From IMG/VR virus record IMGVR_UViG_3300028384_000877, positions 1 through 31,126 of that record: a DNA stretch of 31,126 nucleotides, one strand, 5' to 3'. Positions 1-30,646 of this stretch are shown one piece after another. The DNA is from a virus. The first letter of the stretch is position 1. Each line of letters starts with the position of its first letter. Below the pieces are notes generated by a model. The model did not search any database. It saw nothing but the letters and a program-made list of their open reading frames with translations, and was not told the DNA's origin. The translations under genes and the position numbers were made by a program.

Positions 1-66
1 TCCGCCAGCATTTGCTGTTGCAGCGGTCATCAGTAACATTCCAAAAGCAATTATTGCTTTTTTCAT
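1..66 (-). CDS. Secreted protein, N-terminal fragment (cut by window edge)
   Basis: The reverse strand reads from an ATG at 66 off the left edge of the window. The 22 visible residues start MKKAIIAFGMLLMTAATANA and look like a complete signal peptide: a basic start, a hydrophobic core and an ANA cleavage site followed by Gly-Gly. The mature protein lies outside the window, so its function cannot be judged. It is the last visible gene of the minus-strand structural block. A gap of 45 bases separates it from the upstream gene, and I see no clear promoter there. Confidence 0.55.
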   Translation of the reverse strand, partial: MKKAIIAFGMLLMTAATANAGG

Positions 67-111
67 TGTTGGTCATAGGATTATGAACAGCTGTATTTAG
101 TAAATTTTGGA

Positions 112-702
112 TTAGAAATATCTTAGTGTATATGTAGATGTGTCGATCTCCACTCTTGATACTCTTTGTCCATCACTTTCTCTGTTAGTCGTGATGATTT
201 GTTGTCCTGCAGAAGCTTTGAAATTATTAAATGTTTGAGTTGCTGTTGGATTATAAAAACCGTATCCTGGAATGTTGCCAGTTTCTGCTTCTTTGAGTGG
301 AGTTCCTCCCTGGAATGCATCAGCGGTTATGATAATTGGATTCGTGCCAACTTGATCGTACCAAGTTCCTCTTAGATCTAATACAATTCTAGAAGAATTA
401 TTACCAGGAGCAGATAAAATTGCAGGCACATCAATCAAAATGGATTCATATCCATCATCTGTGGATAGTGTGTTATCTCCACCCCATTCCATATATGTAA
501 CTGTTTGATCATTATTTTGAATCTTAGTGCCTTTTCTTGCACCAACAGATCCGCTTAAGTTTGGTTCGATAAACTTCGCGATGATATCAAAGTCTTTTCC
601 GTTTGTCCAATTCCAGTTGAATATTAAAAAATTACAATAAAAAACTGCTGGATCAAATACTGTTCCTCGGGACTTGCCGATTCCAAATGCGAGTGGTGAC
701 AT
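112..702 (-). CDS. Hypothetical virion structural protein
   Basis: This is a 196-residue protein with no recognised enzyme motif. It is rich in Asn, Thr, Gly and Ser, has no signal peptide or membrane segment, and reads like a beta-rich structural protein. It begins 5 bases after the stop of the cupredoxin-like fibre gene and is probably translated with it. Its position downstream of protease and fibre genes suggests a tail or fibre accessory role. That is inferred from context only. Confidence 0.6.
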   Translation of the reverse strand: MSPLAFGIGKSRGTVFDPAVFYCNFLIFNWNWTNGKDFDIIAKFIEPNLSGSVGARKGTKIQNNDQTVTYMEWGGDNTLSTDDGYESILIDVPAILSAPGNNSSRIVLDLRGTWYDQVGTNPIIITADAFQGGTPLKEAETGNIPGYGFYNPTATQTFNNFKASAGQQIITTNRESDGQRVSRVEIDTSTYTLRYF

Positions 703-707
703 ATTAA

Positions 708-1364
708 CTACTGTGGGATTATAAATGAACCTACCATACCACTATGGATGGTGCATATGTATTGATAATTTGGTGGGGCATTATGTGGGATTATGAATAC
801 TTGAGTTCCCTGTTGAGATCCACTTACATAGGTTCCAACACCAGTTGACGTTCCAGTGAATTGAATACGGAATGGATGGGAGCCTCCAGTTGAGTTCTCA
901 AAAATATATGTAAATCCTCTCTGTAAATATAGAGTTGGATTGTCTACTGTGTTTAGGATCCCAGGTCCAGCAAAGCGATAAGAGCTGGAACCATTTGCAG
1001 TAATATAATATTTAATTGCGAAAGAACGATCCGTTCCATTTCCAGTAGTGAGATCGGTTACGAAACTTCCAGCGGTACAGATACCAGAAACATCCAGTGT
1101 AGTTGCTGTTAGGTTTGCAGGTACTCCTCCTCCACCACCAAGACCAACTCCATAGTTGGTAATATTTGTGGTGGAGATGCCTGTAATATTTGTACCATTG
1201 CCAGCAAAAGATGTAGCAGTAACTACACCAGTCACGGATGTGTTGGTTGTGATTGCAACCTGACCCGTAGCACTCAACCTTAAATCAGCGGTGCCACCAA
1301 AAGTTGAAGTGTTTCCTGTTCCAACAATTCCAAATGATTTTACTCCAAAAGATTTAGATCCCAT
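708..1364 (-). CDS. Small fibre-like protein with a C-terminal cupredoxin-like domain
   Basis: This 218-residue protein has two parts. Residues 1-95 resemble the fibre repeats of the gene at 3612-6431 (VTATSFAGNGTNITGI, near residues 48-63) and include a Gly linker at 76-80. Residues from about 115 to 218 look like a cupredoxin beta-sandwich. His163 lies in SHPFRIQ, and Cys204, His207 and Met210 lie in CTIHSGM. This C-x2-H-x2-M spacing, with an upstream His, is that of an amicyanin-type mononuclear copper site. A structural role in the virion is likely from the repeats and neighbours. Real copper binding is inferred; the fold may instead be used only for structure or carbohydrate contact. Confidence 0.65.
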   Translation of the reverse strand: MGSKSFGVKSFGIVGTGNTSTFGGTADLRLSATGQVAITTNTSVTGVVTATSFAGNGTNITGISTTNITNYGVGLGGGGGVPANLTATTLDVSGICTAGSFVTDLTTGNGTDRSFAIKYYITANGSSSYRFAGPGILNTVDNPTLYLQRGFTYIFENSTGGSHPFRIQFTGTSTGVGTYVSGSQQGTQVFIIPHNAPPNYQYICTIHSGMVGSFIIPQ

Positions 1365-3611: not shown

Positions 3612-6431
3612 TCAGATATCTCTCAGTAGATTTTTGGTGAAACGACATGTTGTGGTTCCAGAAATACCTTGTTCTGGTGTTATAGAAACTACGATATTTC
3701 CTGCGTTGTATGATGCAGATACAGATACAATTTGAACAGGAGAATACATGATTCCATACTCTTGATAATATGTAGTTGTGGTTATTCCTGCTCCACCACC
3801 ATCATGCATAATCATGAATTTCTGCATTTGCCTGTACGTTCCAACTCCAACGGTTAGTGTGTACTCACCACTAGAGTAGGTGGAAGCAGACCAAGTATCG
3901 ATGGTTTGTGGTGTAGCAGCGATTGCAGTAAAGGTTGTGACTCCTGCAGCGATACCAGTAGCAGTTACCGTAACAACACCTGCAGATACAGGAGTTACTG
4001 TAAGTTCTCCATCAAAGTTAATTGTTCCTGCAGTGCCAACTGGAGTTCCAGAATCTTGAATAATGACACCAGATCCAGAACCAACAACACCTGTCAGACC
4101 AGATCCATCGCCATAGAATCCATTGGCAGTGATGATACCTGTTGTGTTAATACTACCGTCCGTTCCAATACCACCACTACCACCAGGAAGATTGGTCAAT
4201 GCAGATCCATCACCAACGAATGCGTTCGCTGTTATGGTCTGACTAGAAGTTACGTTTGCTACAGTCAGTGTATTTGTGCCAGGATTGAATTGTATACCTC
4301 CATTATCAACCATTACTGCACGGTATGCAGAACCAGCTCCACTTTCGCCAAGCATCATAACATTGTATGAATTATTATCATCAACAGACTCGTCGATGTA
4401 AAAATCACCAGAGAATCCAGCAGCAGTAATAATACCTGTAGTATTGATACTGTCGTTAGGTCCAACACCACTTCCACCACTAACACCAGTCAGACCAGAT
4501 CCATCACCAACGAATGATGTTGCAGTTACAACACCTGTTACATTGATGCCAGATCCAGTTACTTGGAGTTTTGTTTGTCCAGAATTTTGTAAGATTAATT
4601 CACTAGAATTAATGAATAGAGATCCAGCTCCACTTTCATTGATGTAACTTTGATTTCCATCATGCCAGATCTGGAGATCACTTGCAGCACCAAGTCCTAG
4701 TCTAACGTTATCTGCGTTTTGTGTGCCGATTCCAGTAGCAGTTGTCCAGATAGATCCATTGTATTTCAGGATATCATTGATCTGTGCTCCAGAGGATATA
4801 ACATCAGTTAGATCATTCAATGTGGTTGCTCCACCACCGCCACTATCACCAACTACATCAGTGATTTCAATGGTTGCAACTCCATTTGAATAGGTTGCAG
4901 TAACACCAGAACCAACGAAGTTAATGGTTGCAGCAGTTCCAACAGTGCTTCCTTCTTCTTGGATTGCGACACCAGATCCTTCTGCGGTGACTCCTGTTAG
5001 GTTAGATCCATCACCATAGAATGTACTTGCGGTAATGATACCAGCAGTGAAATTATCTGTTCCAACACCGATACTTCCGTCTATGTTTCTATTAACAAGT
5101 TCAGCCCATCCTCCTGCATGAGCATAATATGCCTTTCCAGTGTCATGGGCATGAACAAATGCACCATGGTAATCAGAAGGACTTGGTAGATTTCTATATT
5201 CCGCATAGAGGAATGGTAAGATATTGGTTGTTGCAGTACCTACAATTCTTCCTTTCAGTCTGAAGTTGCCCAGAACACTAAGAGCTTCTTCTGCATTAGT
5301 TGTTCCAATACCTACATTGGATGTTGTGGTAATACCTGTTGGACCAGATCTCCAGATAGAACTGGTTGATGGTAGGTTAAACAGACCAGAAGCATCACCA
5401 TAGAATGTGGATGCTGTTAAGATGCCAGTGGTCTGATAATTACCATGAATATCTTCTACAAGTAATCTTCTCCAACCATTATACCCGCCGTTAGTAGTAC
5501 CGTAAGAAACGTATGCTTGTTTTGAGTTATTTGCATAAGCAAACATACCTCTCCAAGACACTGCACTAGGCATGTCAGTGGTAGAGTCAAAGTCAAATCT
5601 CATCTTGCTTCCTTGACCTGGGAAGGTAACAATACCTGCGCCAGAGTTGATGTTATCAACTAGGATAGAAGGGGTCCCAGAGAGGTTCTGTGCGACTGTT
5701 GCGATGCCTGCGGTATGTGCATATCCAGCAACTGTTGAGAATCCTGCATTGCCAGTGTATGTTGATACACCAGCGATCTTTGCATACTCAGAAACACCCG
5801 CATTGGTTGCAACACCCGATGCAGAAGAGTAAGTGACAATTCCTGCAGAAGTTGCGTAAGTTGCGACTCCTGCTATTGTAGCATACGAAGAAACTCCCGC
5901 AAGAGGGGAATAATCTGTAACAGACGAATATCCTGCCGTTGGTGTGTACGATGACACACCCGATACATTTGCATAGGAGACGTAATCCGATGCATCAATT
6001 GTAACGCTACCACCAAATACGCTTCCTACGTCTAATCTATCACCAAAGTTTACGGTTTGTGCAACACCAAGAGTTGCGCCACTATTTTGAATAACAATTC
6101 CTGATCCAGTAGCAGTAACTCCAGTTAGTCCAGATCCATCTCCAATAAAGGTTCCTGTTGTGATACCTGCAAGTAATACGTTCCCCTCAACATGTAGTTG
6201 ACTCTGAGGCAAGGTTGTACCAATGCCAACGTACTTACTGGTACTGATGCCATATGTGCTCGCTTTACTCCATGTACCCGCAGAACCTGCATTAGAAGAT
6301 AGCTCTGTACCGTCACCAAATTGAGTATAGATCTCTTCAAAGTTGGCGTTAATCTTTACAGCACCAGATGCGAGGGAGTCTCCCAGACCATCATTCGGCG
6401 TAAATCCAGTGAAAATCCCCTGTCTAGCCAT
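3612..6431 (-). CDS. Long tail-fibre-like structural protein with repeat modules
   Basis: This 939-residue protein begins MARQGIFTGFTPNDGLGDSL, a start I associate with cyanophage structural proteins. A module of the form TGIITASTFYGDGSGLTGV recurs, with GDGS/GDAS cores near residues 97, 345, 473, 642, 740 and 774. Residues 150-246 hold degenerate ten-residue repeats of the type SGVATYATSAG. Residues 280-330 and 400-450 form two related blocks (MFAYANNSKQAYVSYG, FVHAHDTGKAYYAHAG) that look like receptor-facing or collar domains. There are no membrane segments. It is the first gene of the minus-strand late block and probably forms part of a tail fibre. The host receptor cannot be inferred. Confidence 0.8.
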   Translation of the reverse strand: MARQGIFTGFTPNDGLGDSLASGAVKINANFEEIYTQFGDGTELSSNAGSAGTWSKASTYGISTSKYVGIGTTLPQSQLHVEGNVLLAGITTGTFIGDGSGLTGVTATGSGIVIQNSGATLGVAQTVNFGDRLDVGSVFGGSVTIDASDYVSYANVSGVSSYTPTAGYSSVTDYSPLAGVSSYATIAGVATYATSAGIVTYSSASGVATNAGVSEYAKIAGVSTYTGNAGFSTVAGYAHTAGIATVAQNLSGTPSILVDNINSGAGIVTFPGQGSKMRFDFDSTTDMPSAVSWRGMFAYANNSKQAYVSYGTTNGGYNGWRRLLVEDIHGNYQTTGILTASTFYGDASGLFNLPSTSSIWRSGPTGITTTSNVGIGTTNAEEALSVLGNFRLKGRIVGTATTNILPFLYAEYRNLPSPSDYHGAFVHAHDTGKAYYAHAGGWAELVNRNIDGSIGVGTDNFTAGIITASTFYGDGSNLTGVTAEGSGVAIQEEGSTVGTAATINFVGSGVTATYSNGVATIEITDVVGDSGGGGATTLNDLTDVISSGAQINDILKYNGSIWTTATGIGTQNADNVRLGLGAASDLQIWHDGNQSYINESGAGSLFINSSELILQNSGQTKLQVTGSGINVTGVVTATSFVGDGSGLTGVSGGSGVGPNDSINTTGIITAAGFSGDFYIDESVDDNNSYNVMMLGESGAGSAYRAVMVDNGGIQFNPGTNTLTVANVTSSQTITANAFVGDGSALTNLPGGSGGIGTDGSINTTGIITANGFYGDGSGLTGVVGSGSGVIIQDSGTPVGTAGTINFDGELTVTPVSAGVVTVTATGIAAGVTTFTAIAATPQTIDTWSASTYSSGEYTLTVGVGTYRQMQKFMIMHDGGGAGITTTTYYQEYGIMYSPVQIVSVSASYNAGNIVVSITPEQGISGTTTCRFTKNLLRDI
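5694..5984 (-). repeat. Degenerate 10-residue repeats inside the long fibre gene
   Basis: Codons for residues 150-246 of the fibre encode about nine imperfect units around SGVATYATSAG. The third codon positions vary, so selection seems to act on the protein and not on the DNA. Such runs usually form an extended trimeric fibre shaft. Confidence 0.7.
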
Positions 6432-9511: not shown

Positions 9512-9585
<74 letters not shown>

Positions 9586-9589
9586 CTTC

Positions 9590-9671
9590 GTCGATGTGGC
9601 GGAATTGGTATACGCGCTGGGTTTAGGTTCCAGTGAGGCAACTCATGAAGGTTCAAGTCCTTTCATCGACA
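9590..9671 (+). tRNA. tRNA-Leu (anticodon TAG)
   Basis: This is a class II tRNA. The acceptor stem is GTCGATG/CATCGAC, the anticodon TAG sits in GGTTTAGGTT, and a long variable arm precedes GGTTCAAGTCC. It lies 4 bases after the tRNA-Arg and ends 2 bases before the next ATG. It reads CUA. Confidence 0.92.
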
Positions 9672-9673
9672 CT

Positions 9674-10279
9674 ATGGATTTTAAAATTAGACAATATTGT
9701 AACGATCCCTTTAATACTTGTAGGTTATATGACCCTGCAATATTTGAATGTCCTTACGCAGAAGATATTAATCCAGGCCTCATGGAGTGGATTAAGTCCA
9801 ATGTAATTCCACAACCTTCAAATAATGCATTAACAACTCCTTTTAAACCTACTAAAATAGGATTACCGATTAAAGAGTTGAAAGTTTTGTTTGATTGGAT
9901 TAATTCTGTATCGGTTGAGTCTTCTGAAATGCTTGCTAGGGGTACAGGAACAGCATATCATTCTGCTCCTCCAGAATATAAAAATTTTGAAGTTGCAGAT
10001 TATTGGGGAATGTGGTATAATGAAGGAGACTTTGCAGAAGAACATAATCATTTTCCATACTCAATGTCTTTTGCATACTATGTAAACTGCCCAGAAGGAA
10101 GTTCTCCTCTAGTATTAGAAGGCAATGAAATTCAGGTTACTGAAGGTAGATTGATTATGTTTGCTGGTCACCAAAACCACAAGGTAGATCCTTGTCCAGT
10201 AAATAATAGATTTATGATTGCTGGTAACATTGCGTATCTTGGTTTTGTAGACGATAATGCGGGTGTAGTTCAGCGGTAG
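9674..10279 (+). CDS. 2OG-Fe(II) oxygenase-like protein whose stop lies inside tRNA-Gly
   Basis: I start this 201-residue protein at the ATG at 9674, since the upstream open frame is tRNA-Leu. It fits the double-stranded beta-helix of 2-oxoglutarate/Fe(II) oxygenases. EEHNHFPYS supplies candidate iron ligands His124 and His126, AGHQNHKV supplies His166 or His169, and Arg179 would bind the 2OG carboxylate. The likely reaction is hydroxylation of a protein or small molecule; the substrate is unknown. It starts 2 bases after tRNA-Leu, and its last seven codons run into tRNA-Gly, whose D-arm provides the UAG. The family is likely; the exact subfamily is unsure. Confidence 0.7.
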   Translation: MDFKIRQYCNDPFNTCRLYDPAIFECPYAEDINPGLMEWIKSNVIPQPSNNALTTPFKPTKIGLPIKELKVLFDWINSVSVESSEMLARGTGTAYHSAPPEYKNFEVADYWGMWYNEGDFAEEHNHFPYSMSFAYYVNCPEGSSPLVLEGNEIQVTEGRLIMFAGHQNHKVDPCPVNNRFMIAGNIAYLGFVDDNAGVVQR

Positions 10280-10330
10280 AACGCTATCCTTCCAAGTTAG
10301 ATGTCGTCGGTTCGATTCCGATCACCCGCT
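10259..10330 (+). tRNA. tRNA-Gly (anticodon TCC)
   Basis: The acceptor stem is GCGGGTG/CACCCGC, the anticodon loop CTTCCAA and the T-arm GGTTCGATTCC. The first 21 bases are also the end of the upstream oxygenase gene. One pair of the anticodon stem is mismatched (CTATC/GTTAG). It reads GGA. Confidence 0.88.
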
Positions 10331-10360
10331 TGTTAAATAGTAATGTGTGTGCAATGACAC

Positions 10361-10645
10361 ATGAATACCAAGTTACGAGTCCAACAATCATATGTCTGGT
10401 ATGAAACTCCCAATCATACCATGATCGTTAAAATGTATTTTTTGAATTATATACCTTTTACATTTGATGAGATTCCAGCTGTTGCAATGGATGATCCAGA
10501 AGTAATTATGGAAGCAAATAAAAATCAAGTAATCACAACAGAACAATTGTATAAATCTGCTTCTTATCTTTCTGAAGAACTTGCAATGCCTTTAATTTAT
10601 GAAATGGATTTAGAAAACCCACAAGATCTTCCAGATGCATTATGA
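10361..10645 (+). CDS. Hypothetical protein paired with the next oxygenase
   Basis: This 94-residue protein has no recognised motif, signal or clear membrane segment. Its N-terminal half is beta-rich (SYVWYETPNHTMIVKMYF) and the C-terminal half acidic. It overlaps the next oxygenase gene by 4 bases (ATGA), so the pair is probably translated together and may work together. Confidence 0.55.
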   Translation: MNTKLRVQQSYVWYETPNHTMIVKMYFLNYIPFTFDEIPAVAMDDPEVIMEANKNQVITTEQLYKSASYLSEELAMPLIYEMDLENPQDLPDAL

Positions 10646-11298
10646 TTGACGCATGGTTCTGTGTTCCCATATACAGAAATTATATAATTCCCACCAAGGA
10701 TCAAGATTTTAAAATTGAAAAGTTTTTTTATAAATATTGTCAAGACTTTGGACATCTCCTAGACGGTGGCATTCATAATGTTACTGGAGATATCACAGGA
10801 CTTATTAAAATTTCCGAACTTGATGAGTTTAAATGGATTAATTCTGATTTATGTTCGCATGTAAATAATTTTCTGAGACAAATTGGCGTAGATGTCTCAG
10901 AACATATGATTCACATACAGAAATCTTGGCCTGTTGTTTGTGACACAAATGGAAGTGTGTCTCCACATAACCATAAAAATGCACATATCAGTGCAGTTTA
11001 TTATTTTAAATGTGATTCGGACAATGGCGGAGATATTGAATTCCATTGCCCACCTTATCACCCTATTTTAAATTTGCCAGTGATGCTGGAGAATAATTCT
11101 ACAGTTAGATATACTCCAGAAAAAAATCTACTTCTAATTTTCCCTTCCTCTCTAGAACATAGAGTTACGAAATATATCGGAAAAGACTTCCGTTTTTCTA
11201 TCTCTTATGATATAATGATTACGTCAAAAAAAGACTCTGGACTGGATACAGAATTAATCGTGACACATCCATCAATGTGGACTGTTTTGGGAGATTAG
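10642..11298 (+). CDS. 2OG-Fe(II) oxygenase (2OG-FeII_Oxy_5-like), stop inside tRNA-Val
   Basis: This 218-residue protein matches the phage 2OG oxygenase pattern HxH...PSSLEHRV...R. Candidate iron ligands are His109, His111 and His173 (LEHRV), and Arg184 (FRFSISYD) would hold 2-oxoglutarate. SAVYYF after the first motif is also typical of the family. Proteins of this type are thought to hydroxylate protein or small-molecule targets; none is known here. Its stop UAG lies at positions 8-10 of the tRNA-Val that follows. The family call is good. Confidence 0.78.
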   Translation: MIDAWFCVPIYRNYIIPTKDQDFKIEKFFYKYCQDFGHLLDGGIHNVTGDITGLIKISELDEFKWINSDLCSHVNNFLRQIGVDVSEHMIHIQKSWPVVCDTNGSVSPHNHKNAHISAVYYFKCDSDNGGDIEFHCPPYHPILNLPVMLENNSTVRYTPEKNLLLIFPSSLEHRVTKYIGKDFRFSISYDIMITSKKDSGLDTELIVTHPSMWTVLGD

Positions 11299-11360
11299 CT
11301 CAGAGGTAGAGCTACTCGTTTACACCGAGTCGGTCACTGGTTCAATCCCAGTATCTCCCA
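11289..11360 (+). tRNA. tRNA-Val (anticodon TAC)
   Basis: The acceptor stem is GGGAGAT/ATCTCCC, the anticodon stem-loop CTCGTTTACACCGAG and the T-arm GGTTCAATCCC. Its first ten bases overlap the 3' end of the oxygenase gene. It reads GUA. Confidence 0.92.
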
Positions 11361-11367
11361 TAAAAAA

Positions 11368-11616
11368 ATGTTACACGTTAAATGCACTTGTTGCAATAAA
11401 GAAATTATTTCGTCTTCAAAGCTACAGACATGTGGTTGTGAAAATAATATGATTGTGAGAAATGGAACAGTCACTGCACAAGATTTAAATTACGTAGTTT
11501 TAATTAAATCTAAAGATAATATAAAAAATCGTAGTTTCCTGACAAATGCTGACCTAAAATACCAAGAGGAACGACGCAAACGTAAAGTTCGTAAACTAAC
11601 TTTTGAGGAACGCTAA
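11368..11616 (+). CDS. Small Cys-rich, zinc-finger-like hypothetical protein
   Basis: This 82-residue protein has Cys6, Cys8, Cys9, Cys22 and Cys24 (CTCCNKE and TCGC), a possible small zinc knuckle, and a basic C-terminus (YQEERRKRKVRKL). A nucleic-acid-binding role is possible but only inferred. It starts 7 bases after tRNA-Val, and its stop overlaps the next ATG by one base. Confidence 0.6.
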   Translation: MLHVKCTCCNKEIISSSKLQTCGCENNMIVRNGTVTAQDLNYVVLIKSKDNIKNRSFLTNADLKYQEERRKRKVRKLTFEER

Positions 11617-11816
11617 TGATAAATCTCGATGAACGATACCATTCGTATCTTGCAGGACAGAAAAAATTTCGCATTGATGGTGTGGAGGAGGCAGTAAAAG
11701 GATATGGATTTGAGTGTGATGGTTCATCAATTGTTGGTTATTATGTGTTGACAGAGAACCATAAACTCGTATATAATCTAAAAGAACAGTTCCAATATAT
11801 GGAACATCTTTCTTAA
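11616..11816 (+). CDS. Small hypothetical protein
   Basis: This 66-residue protein (MINLDERYHSYLAGQKKFRI) has no recognised motif, signal or membrane segment. Its ATG overlaps the stop of the Cys-rich gene, so translation is probably coupled. An AT-rich gap of 38 bases follows before the peroxiredoxin gene. Confidence 0.55.
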   Translation: MINLDERYHSYLAGQKKFRIDGVEEAVKGYGFECDGSSIVGYYVLTENHKLVYNLKEQFQYMEHLS

Positions 11817-11854
11817 ATATATAACTTACGTTTAAAAAAATCGCATTAAAGATC

Positions 11855-12457
11855 ATGTTTCAAGTTCCAAACGCTGAATTGTTTTATCTCACTCAGAAGA
11901 ATACTCTGAAGAGAAAATCCATACATGATGAATTTAGAGGAAAGAAAGTTGTAGTTTACTTTGTTTGCGGAGCATATACCCCCACTTGCAGCACAAAACA
12001 CGTACCTGAATATGAAGCTGCTTATGATGAAATCAGATCTTTGGGTATTGATGAAGTCTATTGTTGTTCTATGAATGATCCATGGGTTATGAAATCCTGG
12101 TGGAAGTCCATGGATATTAAGAAACATAAGTATCTGTGTGATGGAAACGGTGCTTGGCTCTTGAGGTTTGAGGAACTTGCTTCTGCAGGACAAAAAGTAG
12201 TTCAGTTCTTTAATACGGGTATGGGAAGACGTGCATGGAGACATGCTCTTGTCATTCATGACAATGTTGTTATGCATGAAGTGCAAGAGACTTCAGAAAC
12301 TGGAGAAAAAAATAACTCTCCAGACGATCCATATGAATTCACTACTGCTCAATCAATCATTGACTATCTTAAAACAAGAGAAGAAGTCAAAAAGAGAAAT
12401 TTAGAATTTAATGAATCTAAAACTTCATTGTCCGATCCTACAGATGTGAACATCTGA
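11855..12457 (+). CDS. Peroxiredoxin (Prx5-like)
   Basis: This 200-residue protein has the Prx5-type active-site pattern CGAYTPTCS. Thr42 and Cys45 match the catalytic Thr and peroxidatic Cys. Position 38 is Cys where most family members have Pro. A Trp-rich segment (MNDPWVMKSWWKSM) and GMGRRAWRHALVIHD, with the family's conserved Arg, follow. It should reduce H2O2 or organic peroxides using thiols; no clear resolving Cys is assigned, though Cys38 is a candidate. The C-terminal 40 residues are an added charged tail. It probably protects the infected, illuminated cell from oxidants. The family is confident; the partner is unknown. Confidence 0.8.
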   Translation: MFQVPNAELFYLTQKNTLKRKSIHDEFRGKKVVVYFVCGAYTPTCSTKHVPEYEAAYDEIRSLGIDEVYCCSMNDPWVMKSWWKSMDIKKHKYLCDGNGAWLLRFEELASAGQKVVQFFNTGMGRRAWRHALVIHDNVVMHEVQETSETGEKNNSPDDPYEFTTAQSIIDYLKTREEVKKRNLEFNESKTSLSDPTDVNI

Positions 12458-12463
12458 TACTAA

Positions 12464-12478
12464 CCCCCCCTTCGGGGG
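12464..12478 (+). terminator. CCCC-UUCG-GGGG hairpin before tRNA-Pro
   Basis: A short GC stem with a UUCG tetraloop (CCCC at 12467-12470, GGGG at 12475-12478) lies between the peroxiredoxin stop and tRNA-Pro. There is no T-run, so it may be a stabilising or processing hairpin and not a true terminator. Confidence 0.45.
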
Positions 12479-12483
12479 ATCTA

Positions 12484-12557
12484 CGGGGCTTAGTTCAGTT
12501 TGGTAGAACGCTCGCTTTGGGAGCGAGAGGTCACAGGTTCAAATCCTGTAGCCCCGA
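12484..12557 (+). tRNA. tRNA-Pro (anticodon TGG)
   Basis: The acceptor stem is CGGGGCT/AGCCCCG, the anticodon stem-loop CTCGCTTTGGGAGCGAG and the T-arm AGGTTCAAATCCT. It reads CCA. A small gene starts 17 bases later. Confidence 0.92.
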
Positions 12558-18316: not shown

Positions 18317-19113
18317 CAACTACAGTAGATAGAAAGGGTTGGGAAGCCGAAGATAAAATTGCAGATGAATACCTACGTGCTTGTACCGAAGCAGTAGAAG
18401 ATGATTCTGCTTTTGAAGTATTCAAATCCAATCCAGAGTATACAACTATTCTAGAACACGTTCTTAAAGATCAGGGTCAATCATACCTGAACATGTCTCG
18501 TGAGATGAACGAGGAAGCTTTTGAGGATAACCTCGCAGGTTTCAGGGAGAATGATCGGTATGGTTCTCCCAATACACAAGTTTATCCTGGTATTGAAGGA
18601 CAGATCTCCCCTACCACTTTACGTTACATCAAGAATACTTTTGAGATTGCTTTCATGGTGAATGAATCTCCTATTAGTCGTATTGTTGAAGTTGGTGGTG
18701 GATATGGCGGACTGTGTAAAGTTCTCAGTACTGTCTGTGAGTTTGATGAGTATATTCTGATTGACCTTCCAGAGGTCAGTGCTCTGCAAAGAAAGTACAT
18801 CGATCTGTTCCCAGATATCAAAGATAAGGTAAAATGTATTCCATGCACTGAGTACGAAGAGATTAAAGATATCGATCTCTTCATTAGCAATTATGCTTTG
18901 TCTGAGTGTAGTCTTGAAGTTCAGATGGAATACTATGATAAACTGGTTACAAATACTAAGTTTGCTTATCTCATCTACAATCTTGTCAACTTTAACGATT
19001 TCCACTATAATGATTTCATCGACAAGATGAAGGAAACATTTACCTTCGATGTTGGTAGAGACTATGAAAACACTGTCATTCTAGCTACAAAAAAAGATGA
19101 ATCGAATCCCTGA
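18313..19113 (+). CDS. Putative sugar O-methyltransferase
   Basis: This 266-residue protein has a clear SAM-binding loop, RIVEVGGGYGGLCKVL (123-138). DEYILIDLPEVSALQRKY and FISNYALSECS follow as the later Rossmann strands. I recall this order from putative sugar O-methyltransferases of surface-polysaccharide clusters. It overlaps GT10 by 4 bases and the NadE-like gene by 17, which suggests coordinated expression. It could cap the glycan by methylating a sugar hydroxyl. Confidence 0.72.
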   Translation: MTTTVDRKGWEAEDKIADEYLRACTEAVEDDSAFEVFKSNPEYTTILEHVLKDQGQSYLNMSREMNEEAFEDNLAGFRENDRYGSPNTQVYPGIEGQISPTTLRYIKNTFEIAFMVNESPISRIVEVGGGYGGLCKVLSTVCEFDEYILIDLPEVSALQRKYIDLFPDIKDKVKCIPCTEYEEIKDIDLFISNYALSECSLEVQMEYYDKLVTNTKFAYLIYNLVNFNDFHYNDFIDKMKETFTFDVGRDYENTVILATKKDESNP

Positions 19114-19864
19114 TTATATGGAATTGACATGCGATATTGTCGCATGGATCTGTGATTACTGTTATAAACACTCCATCAAGTCTTTGGTTGTTGGAGTGTC
19201 TGGTGGTATCGACTCTGCAGTTTCTTCTACTCTTGCAGCTAAGACTGGTCTTCCTGTCTATGCTGTGGGTATGCCAATCAATCAAAAGAAAGAACAGGAG
19301 ACTCTATCTGATGCTCATCTGTTTTGGTTGGAAAAGAACTATCCTAACGTGACTGTTCTTAAGGCAGATCTTTCCGAAGTATTTGGAAAGTTTATCGAGA
19401 CTATTGGTAATGATTGTGGTGTTGAATACTCCATCAATAAAATGGCAGGTGCAAACAGTCGGTCTCGATTTCGTATGGTAACCCTGTATCAGATCGCTGC
19501 CTCTGTTGAAGGTATCGTGGTTGGTACAGGTAACAAGGTGGAAGACTATGGAGTTGGTTTTTACACTAAGTATGGTGACGGTGGCGTTGATATTGCTCCG
19601 ATTGCTGATCTTTATAAAACAGAAGTAAGAGAACTTGGACGATTCAATGGAGTAATTCCTGAAATCGTTGAAGCAAAACCCACTGATGGTCTGTGGGATG
19701 ATGGACGTACTGATGAGGACCAGATCGGTGCATCCTATGAAGATTTAGAATATGCTATGGAACATGGCACTGGTCCTGCAGTTCGTATCCTTCATGATTT
19801 CAACTGTAAGAACAAGCACAAGATGCTTCCTATCCCTACATTTAATTTGGTTACTAAGAAATGA
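19097..19864 (+). CDS. nadE: NadE-like NH3-dependent NAD synthetase or amide ligase
   Basis: This 255-residue protein is an N-type ATP pyrophosphatase of the NadE family. The P-loop is SGGIDS (35-40), and GTGNKVEDYGVGFYTKYGDG plus VDIAPIADLYKTEVRELG and TDGLWDDGRTDEDQIGA are the typical later motifs. NadE adenylates the carboxylate of nicotinic acid adenine dinucleotide and amidates it with ammonia to give NAD+. It has no glutaminase domain, but a nitrilase-like protein is coded three genes on. In this setting it may make NAD+ or may amidate a sugar uronate. The family is firm; the substrate is open. Confidence 0.85.
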   Translation: MNRIPDYMELTCDIVAWICDYCYKHSIKSLVVGVSGGIDSAVSSTLAAKTGLPVYAVGMPINQKKEQETLSDAHLFWLEKNYPNVTVLKADLSEVFGKFIETIGNDCGVEYSINKMAGANSRSRFRMVTLYQIAASVEGIVVGTGNKVEDYGVGFYTKYGDGGVDIAPIADLYKTEVRELGRFNGVIPEIVEAKPTDGLWDDGRTDEDQIGASYEDLEYAMEHGTGPAVRILHDFNCKNKHKMLPIPTFNLVTKK

Positions 19865-21012
19865 GAATCGGTGTCATTGGTGCAGGTCGTCTAGGGATCT
19901 GCTTTGCTCTTCTTTGTGAGGAGAGTGGACATTCTGTAATTGTTTCTGACGTGCAATCAAAATACGTCAGTCAACTTAACAATCGTGAGATCTTCAGTAA
20001 TGAACCTGAAGTCGAAGATCTTTTGATGAGATCAGAGAACTTACGTGCTACTACAAGTAACCAGGAAGTTATTCGTAGTTCGGATGTAATCTTTACCTTC
20101 GTTCCTACACCATCTCTTTCTGATGGCAGTTATGACTGTTCATGTGTTGATATGGTTGTAGAAGATCTTTTCAATTCACCAGATCTTCAGGATAAAAGTT
20201 TTGTTATTGGATCTACAGTCAATCCTGGGTATAGTGATACTGTTCAGGATCGATTAAAAGGTAGAGGCATTGATGTCTTCTACAACCCAGAGTTCATTGC
20301 ACAAGGAACTATCATTCGGGACATGAGAACCGCTGATATGATTCTCTGTGGTGGTGAAGATCCTAGAGGGTTTGCTGAGATTCAAATGATCTATGAGGAT
20401 ATTCAGGATTCTGAGGTTCACTTCTATCCCATGTCTCGCAAAGCTGCAGAGATTACTAAGATTGGCGTAAACTGTTTTCTTACATATAAGATCAGTTATG
20501 CTAACATGATGGGTCAGATTCTATACAATTCTGGATGTGGAGACGAGATTGACAATGTTTTGGATGCCGTTGGAGACGACACCAGAGTCGGTGCTAAATA
20601 TTTGCGTTACGGATTAGGCTTCGGTGGTCCTTGTTTGCCCCGAGACAATCGTGCATTGGGTCACTATGCTCGGACTGTTGGTCTTGAGTATAGTCTTCCT
20701 GATGTTACGGATGATTTCAACGATGCACATGCAAACTTTATTAAACGATATTGTATCGAACAGAATGTAGACAATCTTCCTTTCTTTATTGAGAGTATCG
20801 CTTTCAAGAAAGGTTCTGATATGACTGTAGAGAGTCCACGATTCTTGCTGGTTGAAGACCTTTTAAAGGATGGATATACTGTTTATGTTCAAGAGATTGA
20901 AGATGTTATCGATCATCATGAAGATGAATTGATTGATCTTTATGGAGACAATATCATCTTCGTTAAGAACCCTGCAGAGATTCATGAACCAGTTTGGAGG
21001 ATTGACTTTTGA
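19861..21012 (+). CDS. UDP-glucose/GDP-mannose 6-dehydrogenase family enzyme
   Basis: This 383-residue protein begins with the NAD-binding MRIGVIGAGRLG. It has YNPEFIAQGTIIRDM (141-155), AAEITKIGVNCFLTYKISYANM (195-216) with Lys200 and Asn204, and GFGGPCLPRD (253-262) with the catalytic Cys258. The family oxidises C6 of a nucleotide sugar twice, giving a uronic acid. Its ATG overlaps the stop of the NadE-like gene, and the next gene overlaps its 3' end. A uronic acid carboxylate next to a NadE-like amide ligase suggests a uronamide product. The sugar is not known. Confidence 0.88.
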   Translation: MRIGVIGAGRLGICFALLCEESGHSVIVSDVQSKYVSQLNNREIFSNEPEVEDLLMRSENLRATTSNQEVIRSSDVIFTFVPTPSLSDGSYDCSCVDMVVEDLFNSPDLQDKSFVIGSTVNPGYSDTVQDRLKGRGIDVFYNPEFIAQGTIIRDMRTADMILCGGEDPRGFAEIQMIYEDIQDSEVHFYPMSRKAAEITKIGVNCFLTYKISYANMMGQILYNSGCGDEIDNVLDAVGDDTRVGAKYLRYGLGFGGPCLPRDNRALGHYARTVGLEYSLPDVTDDFNDAHANFIKRYCIEQNVDNLPFFIESIAFKKGSDMTVESPRFLLVEDLLKDGYTVYVQEIEDVIDHHEDELIDLYGDNIIFVKNPAEIHEPVWRIDF

Positions 21013-21869
21013 CAATCAGTTATAATCGCCTAGGTAGCAACGGACGACTAGGTAATCAAATGTTTCAGTATGCCTCTTTGCGAGGCATCGCTGCTTATAA
21101 TGGATATGATTGGATGATTCCTCCTGATGATACTAATCATCGGGATAATTATGGTTTGTTTGAAACCTTTGAAATGGTTCACTGCAAGCCAGAGAATTTG
21201 GGAATCACTAACTTTCCTAACGTAGGAGAGTCTACACATGCCTTTGATGATAAATTATATTATACAAAGGACAACGTAAATATCGACGCATATTTACAGT
21301 GTGAAGATTATTTCTTACATATCGTCGATCACATCCATGAAGATTTTACCTTCAAGTCTGATTACAAGGATCCTTGTATTGATGTGGTTAATGGTATTGA
21401 TAATGCCCCCATTTTCCTACATATTAGACAATCCGATAACATTGGACGAGAAGAGTTTCATCCAATTCTACCGTTATCTTATTATGAGGAAGCGCTGAGT
21501 CACTTCCCCAAAGATACTCCATGCTTTGTTTTGACAGACGATATTGACTGGTGTAAACAACAGTCATTCTTTGATGATGATCGATTCATGTTCAATGAAA
21601 GCAATGGTAGATATTCTTATCAGACTATTGATGGTACTGGTAAGATGCAGAACACTCTTCTGCCTCAGGTTGATTTGTGTCTGATGAGTTTGTGTACTGG
21701 TGGTATTATTGCAAACAGTTCCTTCAGCTGGTGGGGAGCATGGTTGCAGAATGATCGTGGAAAAATCATTGCTCCTAATCCAGAGAAGTGGTTTGGGTCT
21801 GCTATGACTCACCTAGATACTTCTATGATCGTTCCTGCACGTTGGGAAACTTTGGATTGGAGTAAGTGA
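21009..21869 (+). CDS. GT11-family glycosyltransferase (alpha-1,2-fucosyltransferase-like), first copy
   Basis: This 286-residue protein has the GT11 motifs GRLGNQMFQYA (12-22), DDIDWCK and SSFSWWGAWLQND. The start is TTG at 21009, supported by GGAGG at 20996-21000, 8 bases upstream; I see no usable ATG. It differs from the other two copies at the donor-site motif: HIRQSD (138-143) replaces HVRRGD, with Gln for the second Arg. It also lacks the insertion present in the other two. Donor is GDP-fucose in known members, possibly GDP-L-galactose here. No membrane anchor. Confidence 0.85.
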   Translation: MTISYNRLGSNGRLGNQMFQYASLRGIAAYNGYDWMIPPDDTNHRDNYGLFETFEMVHCKPENLGITNFPNVGESTHAFDDKLYYTKDNVNIDAYLQCEDYFLHIVDHIHEDFTFKSDYKDPCIDVVNGIDNAPIFLHIRQSDNIGREEFHPILPLSYYEEALSHFPKDTPCFVLTDDIDWCKQQSFFDDDRFMFNESNGRYSYQTIDGTGKMQNTLLPQVDLCLMSLCTGGIIANSSFSWWGAWLQNDRGKIIAPNPEKWFGSAMTHLDTSMIVPARWETLDWSK

Positions 21870-22729
21870 TGAGGATTGCAGGAGCACAAATTCCTGTCGG
21901 ATTAGACATTCAGCGGAATAAAAGAGAGATTCTCAAAGCAATCGATTGGGCAAAAGAAAATGAAGTTGATCATCTTTTGACACCAGAAGGATCTCTTTCT
22001 GGATATCAGAATGGATGGCAACCTAAAGAGGAAGAAATTAGAGAAGCTCTTAATGAAATTCTAGAATTCCAGAAAGGAATTGGTCTTCATTTGGGGACCA
22101 TGTTTAGAGAAAAATTATCTGACTGGGACATAACAGATCGTAATGAGATTAGACACTACGATAAACTTGGTGAACTAAGTGCCGTAACTTATAAAACACA
22201 TTGTATCCCACATGATAGGTGTATACCTAGGTATGATGATACGGAACCACTTGCATATTTTGAAGTGGAACCAGATGTAACAGCATTAGGAATGATTTGC
22301 AATGATATGTGGGGTTCAGCTGAAGAAGATCACGTATCTTTTTGTGATAATTATCTTCTAGATGAGAATGTTCCACTTATATTTCACGCAACAAATGGTT
22401 TGAAGTGGAATGTAAAGGATAAAAGACAGAAAATTTTTAGTAATTATAGTGAAGCATTCTTGGGGATGGTTGCTTTCAAAAGTCAATCAACTATTTTGAC
22501 TGTAGATTCCTGTGTGAATTGGAACTGGGATGGCGATGAGAGTAAGATCGATGAGTGTATCACTTCCAGTCCTAGTGGTGTTATAAATTATTTGGGGTGG
22601 CAAACTAACGTCCCAAGACAAGGTAGACAGTTCTTCTATTGTGATGTAGACTTGAATATGAAAGAGTCATATCAAAATTATGGTAGAGAAATGTCCAAAA
22701 CATATCCATATGTGAATTTTAATCTTTGA
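21869..22729 (+). CDS. Nitrilase-superfamily (carbon-nitrogen hydrolase) protein
   Basis: This 286-residue protein starts at the ATG overlapping the previous stop (GTG at 21866 is possible). It has the nitrilase catalytic triad: Glu40 in TPEGSLSG, Lys109 in VTYKTHCIP and Cys144 in GMICNDMWG. This superfamily includes the glutaminase domains that feed ammonia to NAD synthetases as well as amidases. Since the NadE-like gene has no such domain, this may be its separate ammonia donor. It could also hydrolyse an amide on its own. The triad is clear; the pairing is inferred. Confidence 0.8.
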   Translation: MRIAGAQIPVGLDIQRNKREILKAIDWAKENEVDHLLTPEGSLSGYQNGWQPKEEEIREALNEILEFQKGIGLHLGTMFREKLSDWDITDRNEIRHYDKLGELSAVTYKTHCIPHDRCIPRYDDTEPLAYFEVEPDVTALGMICNDMWGSAEEDHVSFCDNYLLDENVPLIFHATNGLKWNVKDKRQKIFSNYSEAFLGMVAFKSQSTILTVDSCVNWNWDGDESKIDECITSSPSGVINYLGWQTNVPRQGRQFFYCDVDLNMKESYQNYGREMSKTYPYVNFNL

Positions 22730-22732
22730 GTT

Positions 22733-23629
22733 ATGGCTATTACATTTAAGGGACTTGGTAATGAAGGTCGTCTGGGAAACCAGATGTTTCAATATGCTTT
22801 TGTTCGTGGAGTTGCGGACAACAGAGGATTTGATTGGTTCGTTCCTGGACCAAATGCAGATAGACTTGATAACTATGGTCTATTTGATTGCTTTGAATTA
22901 TTCAACTGCGACCTAGTAGAGAATACTGGAGAGTATTTTATTCCCAGGAAGGTAGAATACCGTGATATGCATTTCAATGAACAGATTTTCAATGAGTGCG
23001 AGGATAATACCGATTTCTCAGGCAACTTTCAGACCGAACGTTACTTTGAGAAGATCAGTGCGTCTTTGCGTGAGGATTTCACTTTTAAAAAGGCGTACCT
23101 GGAACCGTGTCAAGAGTTTATTGATTCTCTTGGTGGACGTGATGAGTGTATCTTTTTGCACGTTCGTAGAGGTAATCCAAACCTTACTGGGCGTAGAGGG
23201 GAGAAGTGGTCTTATCAGATGGTGCAAGAGTATCACCCGCTCTGCAAAGCTGACTATTATGTACGGGCGCTCCAAGAGTTCCCCGAAGATAAACAAGTCG
23301 TAGTTGTGTCTGACACTATTGATTGGTGTAAACAACAACCATGGTTGCAAGGTGATCGATTCCAGTTCTCAGATTCTTCTTATGAAGAGTTTGGAGACGG
23401 TGCCTCAGTACCTTATATTGATCTTTGCCTGATGAGTCTTTGTGGTGGTGCAATCATCGCTAACTCTTCCCTGTCTTGGTGGGGAGCGTGGTTGCAGAAC
23501 GATGCAGGAAAGGTGGTTGTACCTGATCCCTGGTTTGGTCCTGCATATGAACACTATGATATGAAGGATATGATTCCAAAGAGATGGGTCAAACTTCACA
23601 ATGATCCAACGCCTGTGACTCCCGAATGA
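22733..23629 (+). CDS. GT11-family glycosyltransferase, second copy
   Basis: This 298-residue protein has GRLGNQMFQYA (12-22), the donor motif HVRRGN (143-148), DTIDWCKQQPW and SSLSWWGAWLQND. It shares with the third copy an insertion after the donor motif (KWSYQMVQEYHP), which the first copy lacks, so these two are the closer pair. The motifs imply transfer of a GDP-L-sugar, fucose in known enzymes, to a 2-hydroxyl. It starts 3 bases after the nitrilase-like gene and overlaps the next gene by 4 bases. Confidence 0.87.
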   Translation: MAITFKGLGNEGRLGNQMFQYAFVRGVADNRGFDWFVPGPNADRLDNYGLFDCFELFNCDLVENTGEYFIPRKVEYRDMHFNEQIFNECEDNTDFSGNFQTERYFEKISASLREDFTFKKAYLEPCQEFIDSLGGRDECIFLHVRRGNPNLTGRRGEKWSYQMVQEYHPLCKADYYVRALQEFPEDKQVVVVSDTIDWCKQQPWLQGDRFQFSDSSYEEFGDGASVPYIDLCLMSLCGGAIIANSSLSWWGAWLQNDAGKVVVPDPWFGPAYEHYDMKDMIPKRWVKLHNDPTPVTPE

Positions 23630-24462
23630 AAGACCTAACATACCTATTGCCTTGTCGAATCGAGACAGATGATCGTCTTCGTAACGTAATTACATCAGTA
23701 TCGTATCTACTTAAGAACTTTCCAGAGGCAAAAGTTCTGATCAAAGAAGTTGATACCAAATCACAATTCATCGAGTTTGCTCTTCCTCAGATCAAAAAGT
23801 ATGTTGGTGACATTGGTCAACTAAAGCATAGTTTTGAGAAGAGTGATGAAAAATTCTTTCACAAAACAAGAATTCTAAATGATCTATGTGTCGCAGCTGA
23901 CACTTCAATCATCTATAATCATGATGTAGATGTAGTTTTACCAAAGAATAGTCATGAACTTGCTTACCAAGGAATTACACAAGAAGGCTCTGATGCTGTT
24001 TATCCTTTTGGATGCGGGATCTATCAGTGGGCTGTTAACTATTCCGACGACCTGTTAGATAAGTTTCTTTCCTCTCACGATGGTACAGACTTTGACCTGA
24101 GTGTTCTTGATAACAGTAAACAACGCATCCCATCTTCTATTGGGTGGGGACAAATGATCAAGAAAGCTGCACAAGTCTCTGCTGGTATGTGGAATGAAGA
24201 GTTCATTTCATGGGGTGCGGAAGACTGTGAGTTCTATTATCGACTCAATCTTTTTGGGTTTAAGGTAGGCAGAGTTATTGATGACATCTATCATTTTGAA
24301 CATGGTAGAACTTTTAACTCACACTATCACAATCCCAAGTTCCAAGACAATGATCGACTGTGGAATTGGATTCGTACTCAAGACAAAGAAAGTCTTACTC
24401 AATATTATTCAAAACTAGAATACATTAAACGTCGGGGAGAAGAACTAAATGCTAGCCTTTAA
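23626..24462 (+). CDS. Glycosyltransferase, GT-A fold with GT7-like C-terminal motif
   Basis: This 278-residue protein starts MKDLTYLLPCRIETDDR and carries a DxD-type motif in NHDVDVVL (Asp100-Val-Asp102) for metal and nucleotide sugar. WGAEDCEFYYRLNLFGFKVG (196-215) is like the C-terminal galactosyltransferase motif of GT7. Such enzymes use UDP-activated hexoses. It lies between two GT11 genes and overlaps both by a few bases. The donor may be UDP-galactose, UDP-glucose or a modified UDP sugar made by the operon. Confidence 0.75.
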   Translation: MKDLTYLLPCRIETDDRLRNVITSVSYLLKNFPEAKVLIKEVDTKSQFIEFALPQIKKYVGDIGQLKHSFEKSDEKFFHKTRILNDLCVAADTSIIYNHDVDVVLPKNSHELAYQGITQEGSDAVYPFGCGIYQWAVNYSDDLLDKFLSSHDGTDFDLSVLDNSKQRIPSSIGWGQMIKKAAQVSAGMWNEEFISWGAEDCEFYYRLNLFGFKVGRVIDDIYHFEHGRTFNSHYHNPKFQDNDRLWNWIRTQDKESLTQYYSKLEYIKRRGEELNASL

Positions 24463-25306
24463 TCAACTTGGAAACTTAGGAAGACTGGGTAACCAGATGT
24501 TCCAGTATGCAGCAGTCAGAGGTATTGCTGCAATGAGAGGATATCAGTTTGGTATTCCTCCACACGATGCAAAACGTGTTGATAACTACAGTCTTGGTAG
24601 AGCATTTAAGTTAGAATCTGTTGGTCCTTCTAACTTGCATGTCCTTGATCGTGGACATGCTCCAGTGGTTGTCGAAAAACATTTTCACTTCGATGAAGAA
24701 CTACATAGAATGTGTCCGAACGACGTTAGTTTGTTTGGATTTTTTCAGTCGGAGAAATACTTCGCCAACATTAAGGATGAGATTCTAAGAGATTTTACTT
24801 TCCATGATTCAATTCTGGATCCCTGCAAAGAGATGGTCGATTCGCTGGATCAAGCGCCTCTCTTTCTTCACGTTCGTCGGGGTGATCCTAACCTTGTCGA
24901 TGCTAGGGGATTTAAGTGGTCGTACACGCAATGTTCGTCGCAACATCCACCACAACCGCTCTCCTATTACGAGAAAGCTCTGAAATATTTTGATGATGAT
25001 CAACCAGTAGTAGTCTGTTCTGACTCACCAGAATGGGTCAAGGAACAAGAGTTCTTTGCTGATGATAGGTTCTTGATCTCTGAACCCCAAGACAAGTATC
25101 CTGATGGATCCTGGGAACCTTTCGTGGACCTCTGCATTATGAGTCTATGTTCTGGTGCAATCATTGCTAACTCATCTTTATCTTGGTGGGGAGCATATCT
25201 TCAGAACAATCGCGGCACTGTTGTTGCTCCTGAGATGTGGTTTGGACCAGACTATAAGGACAAAGACACTTCAGATCTTTATGTGACAGGATGGATCAGA
25301 ACTTAA
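24449..25306 (+). CDS. GT11-family glycosyltransferase, third copy
   Basis: This 285-residue protein has GRLGNQMFQYA (11-21), the full donor motif HVRRGDPN (141-148) and SSLSWWGAYLQNN. It shares the KWSY insertion with the second copy. All GT11 key residues look intact, so it is expected to be active with a GDP-L-sugar donor. It overlaps the preceding GT by 14 bases and the oxygenase by 16. Three GT11s in one operon suggest several different linkages or repeated residues. Confidence 0.87.
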   Translation: MLAFNQLGNLGRLGNQMFQYAAVRGIAAMRGYQFGIPPHDAKRVDNYSLGRAFKLESVGPSNLHVLDRGHAPVVVEKHFHFDEELHRMCPNDVSLFGFFQSEKYFANIKDEILRDFTFHDSILDPCKEMVDSLDQAPLFLHVRRGDPNLVDARGFKWSYTQCSSQHPPQPLSYYEKALKYFDDDQPVVVCSDSPEWVKEQEFFADDRFLISEPQDKYPDGSWEPFVDLCIMSLCSGAIIANSSLSWWGAYLQNNRGTVVAPEMWFGPDYKDKDTSDLYVTGWIRT

Positions 25307-27393: not shown

Positions 27394-28252
27394 ATGAAAC
27401 TCAAAGCAATCGCAGCTGCCGCCTTGGCAGCACCCCTGATGGTAGCTTGCGCTTCCACTGAGAATAAAGAAGTCAGTAAAGAGCCATACAAATTGAATGG
27501 CGCTGGTGCTTCTTTCCCTGCAATGCTCTACAATAATATGTTGCAGGACCTTGCTGAAAAGACTGGCAACCAAGTCAACTATCAAGCAGTTGGTAGTGGT
27601 GCTGGTGTTCGTCAGTTCAAAGCAAAGACCGTTGACTTCGGTGCCAGCGATGGTGCAACTGGTCTACCTTCGGTTGTGCTGATAAGCGCATCGCTACTGT
27701 CCATCGTTCTGATGGTTCTGGTACTACCAAAGGTTTCACGAACTCCCTGTCGGCATTCTCCCCTGAGTGGAAGAAGACTGTAGGTACAGGTAAGTCTGTG
27801 AAGTGGCCTGTTGGTGTTGGATCTAAAGGTAACAGCGGTGTCGCTGCTACTATCACCAATACCCCTGGTTCCATTGGTTATGTGAATTATGGTTATGTGA
27901 AGGGTGACCTTCAACAGGTTTCTATCCAAAACCGTGCAGGTAATTATGTCACCGCTTCTGCTTCGACTGCATCTGCTGGTCTTGGTGAGATCGTTCTTGA
28001 TGATCAACTGCGTGGTGCTGACGCTAACCCTGCTGGTGCCAATGCTTATCCTATTGTCTCCTTGACTTGGATCCTGGCATATCCTGAGTATGAGAAGAAT
28101 GGTGATGTGAAGGACATGCTTCGCTGGATGCTGACACCTACTCAGCAACAGAAGGCAGACTCCCTTGGTTATGTTCCTCTTCCTGAGTCACTTCGTCAGA
28201 AAGCACTTGCTGTGGTTTTTCACCAAAACAGATCGAGGGCAACAAAATTTAG
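27394..28252 (+). pseudogene. pstS: Phosphate-binding protein PstS, interrupted by a deletion and frameshift
   Basis: The first part has a lipoprotein-like signal (residues 1-19, ending MVACAS), then LNGAGASFPAMLYNNM and GSGAGVRQF...DFGASDG, the phosphate-binding start of PstS. The second part, in another frame from about 27657, begins NWSTFGCADKRIATVHRSDG and includes SDGSGTT, GNSGVAA and GSIGYVNYGYV. By comparison with E. coli PstS, some 55 residues are lost near 27651-27656, with a frame change. The 3' end is also unclear: QIEGNKI and TAG at 28250-28252 lie in a different frame from the rest. Normal PstS captures periplasmic phosphate for the host transporter. As read here it cannot make a full protein. 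Confidence 0.75.
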
Positions 28253-28263
28253 GAGACTGCACC

Positions 28264-28383
28264 TCATTATATCAATTGGTGGAAAGACTCCAATATAGAT
28301 TGGAGGGATTGGAAAATGAACACCTACAAATCTTATCAAAGCTACATCAACTAGAATCCAAATTAGACAATAATTATTCGTGA
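28264..28383 (+). CDS. Small coiled-coil protein lacking an obvious start codon
   Basis: The frame reads SLYQLVERLQYRLEGLENEH and continues to a TGA at 28383, about 40 residues of heptad-like helix. AGGAGA at 28251-28256 is a good ribosome binding site, and an ATG would be expected near 28261-28264, but none is there. The first in-frame TTG is at 28276. Either a non-ATG start is used or the start was lost together with the damage at the end of pstS. Function unknown. Confidence 0.4.
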   Translation, partial: SLYQLVERLQYRLEGLENEHLQILSKLHQLESKLDNNYS

Positions 28384-29565: not shown

Positions 29566-29659
29566 GTTACGAAACGTAACGAATGGTCGCTCCCCCTAAA
29601 CCGAGACCTATAGGGAGAATAAACACGTCTCTAATACCCACACTGGAGGGTGGTGTGGG
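29566..29659 (+). promoter_or_regulatory. Structured psbA leader, candidate PhotoRC-type RNA
   Basis: GTTACG/CGTAAC (29566-29580) and CCCACAC/GTGTGGG (29637-29659) form hairpins. Between them, GGTC (29585-29588) with GACC (29605-29608) and CTCCC (29590-29594) with GGGAG (29613-29617) would cross as a pseudoknot. PhotoRC RNAs are known leaders of psbA in cyanophages, so this may be one; I cannot check the consensus. The rest of the leader to 29709 shows nothing more. Confidence 0.5.
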
Positions 29660-29709
29660 AATATCATAACTGTCGCATCCCTAGCGATCTTTCTTACCCT
29701 TTTTCAAAA

Positions 29710-30646
<937 letters not shown>

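Follow-up and report, generated by a model that had tools for sequence, protein, structure and literature searches.

The cupredoxin fold is a Greek-key beta-sandwich of seven to eight strands, and in type 1 copper proteins the ligands follow one another in the order His...Cys-x(2-4)-His-x(2-4)-Met/Gln. Gln is the natural axial ligand of stellacyanins, the C-x4-H spacing is known from azurin, and the first His is followed by Asn in the small cupredoxins and by Pro in multicopper oxidases. Metal ions also occur in phage tail proteins: T4 gp12 holds zinc, and T4 gp37 and the P2 spike hold iron, in interchain sites built from His motifs. In the open-access literature that we searched, nothing was found on copper in phage tails, and the one paper there that mentions cyanophages together with a cupredoxin deals with Borgs. 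Marine cyanophages related to T4 possess a baseplate protein, gp9 (T4-GC 398, PHROG 677), whose likeness to T4 gp9 and gp10 is limited to the N-terminal domain (E-values of 3.5e-6 and 1e-8, respectively). We analysed a virus fragment of 31,126 bases (hereafter the window), which is ~99.6% identical to Synechococcus phage Sf-FS3 over 24.9 kb. On balance, we favour the view that one of its genes encodes an accessory protein of the tail fibre or baseplate in a marine T4-like cyanophage, and that the last 109 residues of this protein adopt the cupredoxin fold and include a complete type 1 site, a putative copper clip.

The predicted protein has 218 residues and lies in a row of tail-module genes (Table 1). 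The preliminary description had proposed a fibre-like protein ending in a type 1 copper site with amicyanin-like spacing, formed by His163, Cys204, His207 and Met210; the four positions are exact in the minus-strand reading frame, and the C-x2-H-x2-M arrangement agrees with type 1 site architecture. Cys204, His207 and Met210 all fall within the stretch YQYICTIHSGMVGSFII. That the protein starts as a fibre repeat is likewise borne out, as the GVVTATSFAGNGTNITGI-type repeat of its N-terminal half occurs in five copies in the 939-residue fibre encoded two genes upstream, with which the N-terminal region shares a match of E 3.5e-5. Residues 35–217 match positions 230–409 of the 412-position profile PHROG 677, “baseplate wedge tail fiber protein connector”, with E 9e-39, and the Sf-FS3 counterpart, SfFS3_196, which bears the same name, is 98.6% identical to the window protein.

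Table 1 Features of the tail-module gene row of the window, and of a related wedge subunit in another cyanophage record (L072).
Feature	Position	Strand	Basis or conservation
196-aa protein, next in the same gene row	112..702	-	PHROG 24956, E 3e-8; order shared with Sf-FS3 and S-SSM7
Fibre-like protein with C-terminal cupredoxin-like domain, 218 aa	708..1364	-	ATG start; PHROG 677
Cupredoxin-like domain, ~residues 110-218	711..1037	-	AlphaFold2 model and Foldseek PDB matches
Met210 codon, putative axial ligand	735..737	-	Met in 171, Gln in 6 of 177 domains
His207 codon, putative second His ligand	744..746	-	Kept in 176 of 177 domains
Cys204 codon, putative thiolate ligand	753..755	-	Kept in 176 of 177 domains
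His163 codon, putative first ligand, in HPFRI (context GSHPFRIQF)	876..878	-	Kept in 176 of 178 domains
N-terminal fibre-like region, residues 1-105, TATSF-x-G-x-G repeat	1050..1364	-	Match to 939-aa fibre; repeat positions
S8 (subtilase-like) protease, 738 aa	1392..3608	-	Pfam PF00082, E 2e-11; D207, H333, N489, S640
Large fibre, 939 aa, N-terminus baseplate-wedge-like	3612..6431	-	PHROG 6942, 677 and 958 matches from residues 1-4
T4-GC 399 cupredoxin-like region, first copy	L072:4264-4710		H-P and C-x2-H-x2-M
T4-GC 399 cupredoxin-like region, second copy	L072:4897-5373		Ligand-free

Structure prediction, proposed earlier as a check on the copper-site reading, agreed with it as to fold and ligand placement. 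AlphaFold2 modelled the domain, from an input that contained the ligand residues themselves, with nine strands, a pLDDT of 93.3 and a pTM of 0.85. When the PDB was searched with this model using Foldseek, the best 50 matches were all cupredoxins or cupredoxin-containing copper enzymes, with probabilities mostly of 1.00 and TM-scores of only ~0.5 to the solved cupredoxins. In the model, His163 lies just ahead of a strand, Cys204 closes the penultimate strand, and His207 and Met210 occupy the loop that leads into the last strand, so that ligand order and predicted placement are those of type 1 sites. The domain thus resembles amicyanin, plastocyanin, rusticyanin and the cupredoxin domains of nitrite reductase in its predicted fold, in ligand order and spacing, in the signature Y-x-C-x2-H-x2-M-x-G and in a Cys that ends the penultimate strand. 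It differs from type 1 blue copper proteins in that it is borne by a phage structural protein whose N-terminus is fibre-like, and from the small ones also in that Pro, not Asn, follows the first His. The model of a full canonical gp9 reached a pLDDT of just 59 and was therefore left out of the fold search.

Sequence comparisons gave a more qualified picture. The window protein is without a match in Pfam, and the curated amicyanin model of NCBIfam scored 16.4 bits (E 0.009) against a cut-off of 110.2, so the domain falls outside the curated plastocyanin and amicyanin families. With the window sequence alone, phmmer retrieved just two weak matches from the PDB, one of them amicyanin. With a profile of 32 homologues, type 1 copper proteins made up nearly all of the 24 matches, including copper nitrite reductases (E 4.5e-4), amicyanins, auracyanin, plastocyanins, azurin and pseudoazurin; over the profile searches with all columns kept, about 22–26 of the 24–27 PDB matches were type 1 copper proteins. 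An 18-row alignment yielded such proteins as 26 of its 27 matches, and hiding the four ligand columns of the same rows abolished every cupredoxin match, a further difference from the blue copper proteins themselves. The sequence link to cupredoxins thus rests on the ligand residues, and the rest of the case is carried by the predicted fold. We regard the cupredoxin fold as close to certain.

The bare motif is weak evidence, because the six frames of the window contain three instances of the loose pattern H...C-x2-4-H-x2-4-M/Q. Common as it is, a chance match is ruled out by ligand conservation and the predicted fold. According to the preliminary description, homologues lacking the Cys or His residues would count against a copper site; among 178 distinct domains the ligand set is HCHM in 169 and HCHQ in six, with single cases of NCHM, DSNM and a truncated domain, and the observation stands. 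The four residues are invariant in the 32-sequence alignment, and their conservation reaches homologues of ~31% identity. All 51 distinct proteins of gp9 length are HCHM, in a set gathered blind to the ligands, using gp9 patterns that contained no ligand residue. The axial position changes only from Met to Gln, and C-x4-H variants are present among the 178 domains. Cys and both His residues are as conserved (99%) as the structural Gly and Pro residues. The DSNM domain (record L027) has lost His, Cys and His jointly but retains the remainder of the domain, which suggests that the ligands act as one site and are dispensable for the fold. No second Cys is present in 163 of the 178 domains, and a disulphide role for Cys204 within the domain is thereby ruled out. 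From the conservation, the triple loss and the lone Cys, the four residues appear to behave as one metal site. The earlier suggestion that they might merely keep the fold is accordingly disfavoured, the restriction of axial changes to Gln adding to the L027 and lone-Cys evidence.

The metal of this site is probably copper. Zinc, bound as a purely structural ion in the manner of the zinc and iron in other phages' fibres, is the most likely substitute, and we consider it unlikely. Cys-His-His sites bind zinc too, and zinc-stabilised phage fibres are known, but an axial Met that is conserved and replaced only by Gln is the signature of a copper site, Met being rare in zinc sites, and copper proteins top the profile matches in the PDB.

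Relatives of the domain were found by tblastn in 320 phage records, all of marine cyanophages or unnamed marine viruses, of which 318 cover at least 80% of the domain. A control search with the baseplate gene gp8 recovered 488 records, 459 of them named Synechococcus, Cyanophage or Prochlorococcus; at the tblastn sensitivity used, the domain had no match in the other T4-like phages of that control (Pelagibacter, Sinorhizobium, Caulobacter and others). Most marine cyanomyovirus records carry the domain. A scan of a genome collection gave only one planctomycete MAG contig, so no cellular source could be identified.

In most cyanomyoviruses the domain is the C-terminus of gp9, to which that of the window protein is homologous. 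Unlike canonical gp9 and S-SZBM1_206, the window protein does not have the N-terminal wedge-binding domain that resembles T4 gp9 and gp10. In the window, Sf-FS3, S-SSM7 and S-SCSM2R, the domain is instead found on a small fibre-like protein whose gene adjoins an S8 protease gene, and no such domain was found in the separate gp9-N-type reading frame (~341 residues) of Sf-FS3 and S-SSM7. A single strong copy, on differing carriers, is present in every one of the 21 cyanophage records examined, with weaker additional matches in some. The axial residue is Gln in some long reading frames downstream of gp9 (L198, L199, L203, L206 and L209).

Two related regions occur in the wedge subunit T4-GC 399, which adjoins canonical gp9: in one, His-Pro and C-x2-H-x2-M are invariant, and in the other these residues are missing. 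Comparison of the copies' profiles by hhalign gave 60% and 83%, and a PDB search with the first copy returned antibody domains and no cupredoxins; given these modest hhalign values and the antibody matches, the link of T4-GC 399 to cupredoxins is suggestive only. The second copy, ligand-free and related at the profile level, would fit a cupredoxin-shaped beta-sandwich that serves as a mere scaffold, its ligands inherited and its virion form devoid of metal. Apo-cupredoxins do fold without metal, and apo-plastocyanin (2pcy) is among the Foldseek matches. We think a metal-free scaffold quite improbable for the window protein, since ligand loss is rare in its relatives, the one clear case loses three ligands together, and Cys, His and His are kept as strictly as the structural residues.

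The S8 protein encoded next to the window protein has the Asp/His/Ser triad and the oxyanion Asn, which are kept in the homologues covered apart from one Ser-to-Cys change; judged by these residues, the protease is apparently active. An S8 gene directly adjoins the cupredoxin gene in ~58 loci, before it in ~49 and after it in ~9, in a set sampled for likeness to the window protein and including some overlapping contigs. None of 13 records with the canonical form of gp9 has the S8 gene. A single profile, PHROG 9158, spans both the S8 protein of the window (4–570) and the cupredoxin domain (590–695); in the window, unlike in the single protein of that profile, the two parts are separate adjoining genes.

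In another reading the copper would be redox active: the domain would either exchange electrons with components of the host surface or thylakoid, or sense redox state and thereby set off contraction of the tail or activate the neighbouring protease. The site has the architecture of an electron-transfer centre, and the domain was found only in cyanophages and not in the non-cyanobacterial T4-like records recovered by the gp8 control. Electron transfer would, however, require an exposed docking face; no redox partner is encoded beside the cupredoxin gene, and the carriers vary between gp9, fibres and S8-linked proteins. A redox role is, in our judgement, decidedly unlikely.

A virion location had been supposed for the protein from the outset, and homology supports it. 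S-SZBM1_206 (498 residues) begins with a T4_gp9_10_N domain and ends with a complete HCHM domain, and was detected by LC-MS in CsCl-purified virions with nine peptides, 24.9% coverage and an emPAI of 0.98, between those of the baseplate wedge protein S-SZBM1_204 (1.37) and the sheath (0.72) (PMC9146016). Direct detection thus places a protein carrying this domain in the virion of S-SZBM1, and homology suggests the same for the window phage. The notion that the gene is a phage plastocyanin, an auxiliary metabolic PetE as the annotation of the S-SCSM2R homologue has it, draws some colour from the plastocyanins among the fold matches but is ruled out, to all intents, by the fibre repeats with which the protein begins, the lack of an apparent signal peptide, the gp9 and tail-protein context of its homologues, one of them in the virion, and the existence of separate short cyanophage petE genes of 324–369 nt (PMC3037559). 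The S-SCSM2R gene (L061:8001-8507) is likely a misannotated structural protein.

Several other features of the window were recorded. Five tRNA genes (Arg, Leu, Gly, Val and Pro) are interspersed with oxygenase-like genes at 9512–12557, and a peroxiredoxin-like protein (11855–12457; Redoxin, E 2e-20) is flanked by tRNA genes. An NAD synthase gene (19097–19864) is followed two genes on by a nitrilase-like reading frame (21866–22729), recognised by eye and with no Pfam match at 1e-3; together they may represent a glutamine-dependent NAD synthetase split in two. Among nucleotide-sugar enzymes lie three glycosyltransferase family 11 (alpha-1,2-fucosyltransferase) genes that resemble one another (21009–21869, 22733–23629 and 24449–25306), a surface-sugar cassette. 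Towards the end of the window, a gene for a pstS-like phosphate-binding protein (27394–28298) is split into two frames, and psbA (29650–30646) appears broken into an N-terminal reading frame at 29650–30306 and a C-terminal one at 30443–30646 with a shortened middle, possibly by a true deletion or an assembly fault. The window end aligns to Sf-FS3 in five pieces, which suggests assembly errors in conserved host-like genes.

For the copper-binding domain that we prefer, we tentatively propose the role of a structural copper clip at the tail tip or in an adaptor. The domain would be assembled on the tail in apo form and, after release, would acquire copper from sea water or from cyanobacteria undergoing lysis; the bound ion would lock the C-terminal loop that joins the final pair of strands, and the locked loop would stiffen the adaptor or a receptor-facing tip. 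The fibre repeats suggest a trimer, in which case there may be three sites per spike. In the subgroup to which the window belongs, the domain may work beside the subtilisin-like protease of the tail module. The proposed use of a metal as a stabiliser of the tail tip is shared with T4 gp12, T4 gp37 and the P2 spike; unlike theirs, the putative site of the window protein lies inside one cupredoxin domain. A bolder possibility, which we hold to be doubtful, is that the baseplate or tail fibre of most marine cyanomyoviruses bears a type 1 copper centre, moved among carriers (gp9, fibre, subtilase partner) with one strong copy per genome, and that copper loading or redox state controls the stability of the tail tip or the activation of an adjacent virion protease at the host surface.

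Ocean phages may, then, carry a copper centre on the tail. The fold and the site are already known; their use as a widespread structural domain in the virions of marine cyanophages is apparently undescribed in the searchable literature. For annotation, the domain serves as a warning: genes of this kind can wrongly receive the label of an auxiliary metabolic plastocyanin (PetE), as S-SCSM2R illustrates. If copper is bound, a conserved and so far unexplained domain of cyanophage gp9 would be accounted for, and the metal would offer a spectroscopic handle on the phage baseplate. Copper would then belong to the particle itself in some of the commonest viruses of the ocean, where it would stabilise or switch the infection machinery, and the stability of these phages would be tied to marine copper chemistry.
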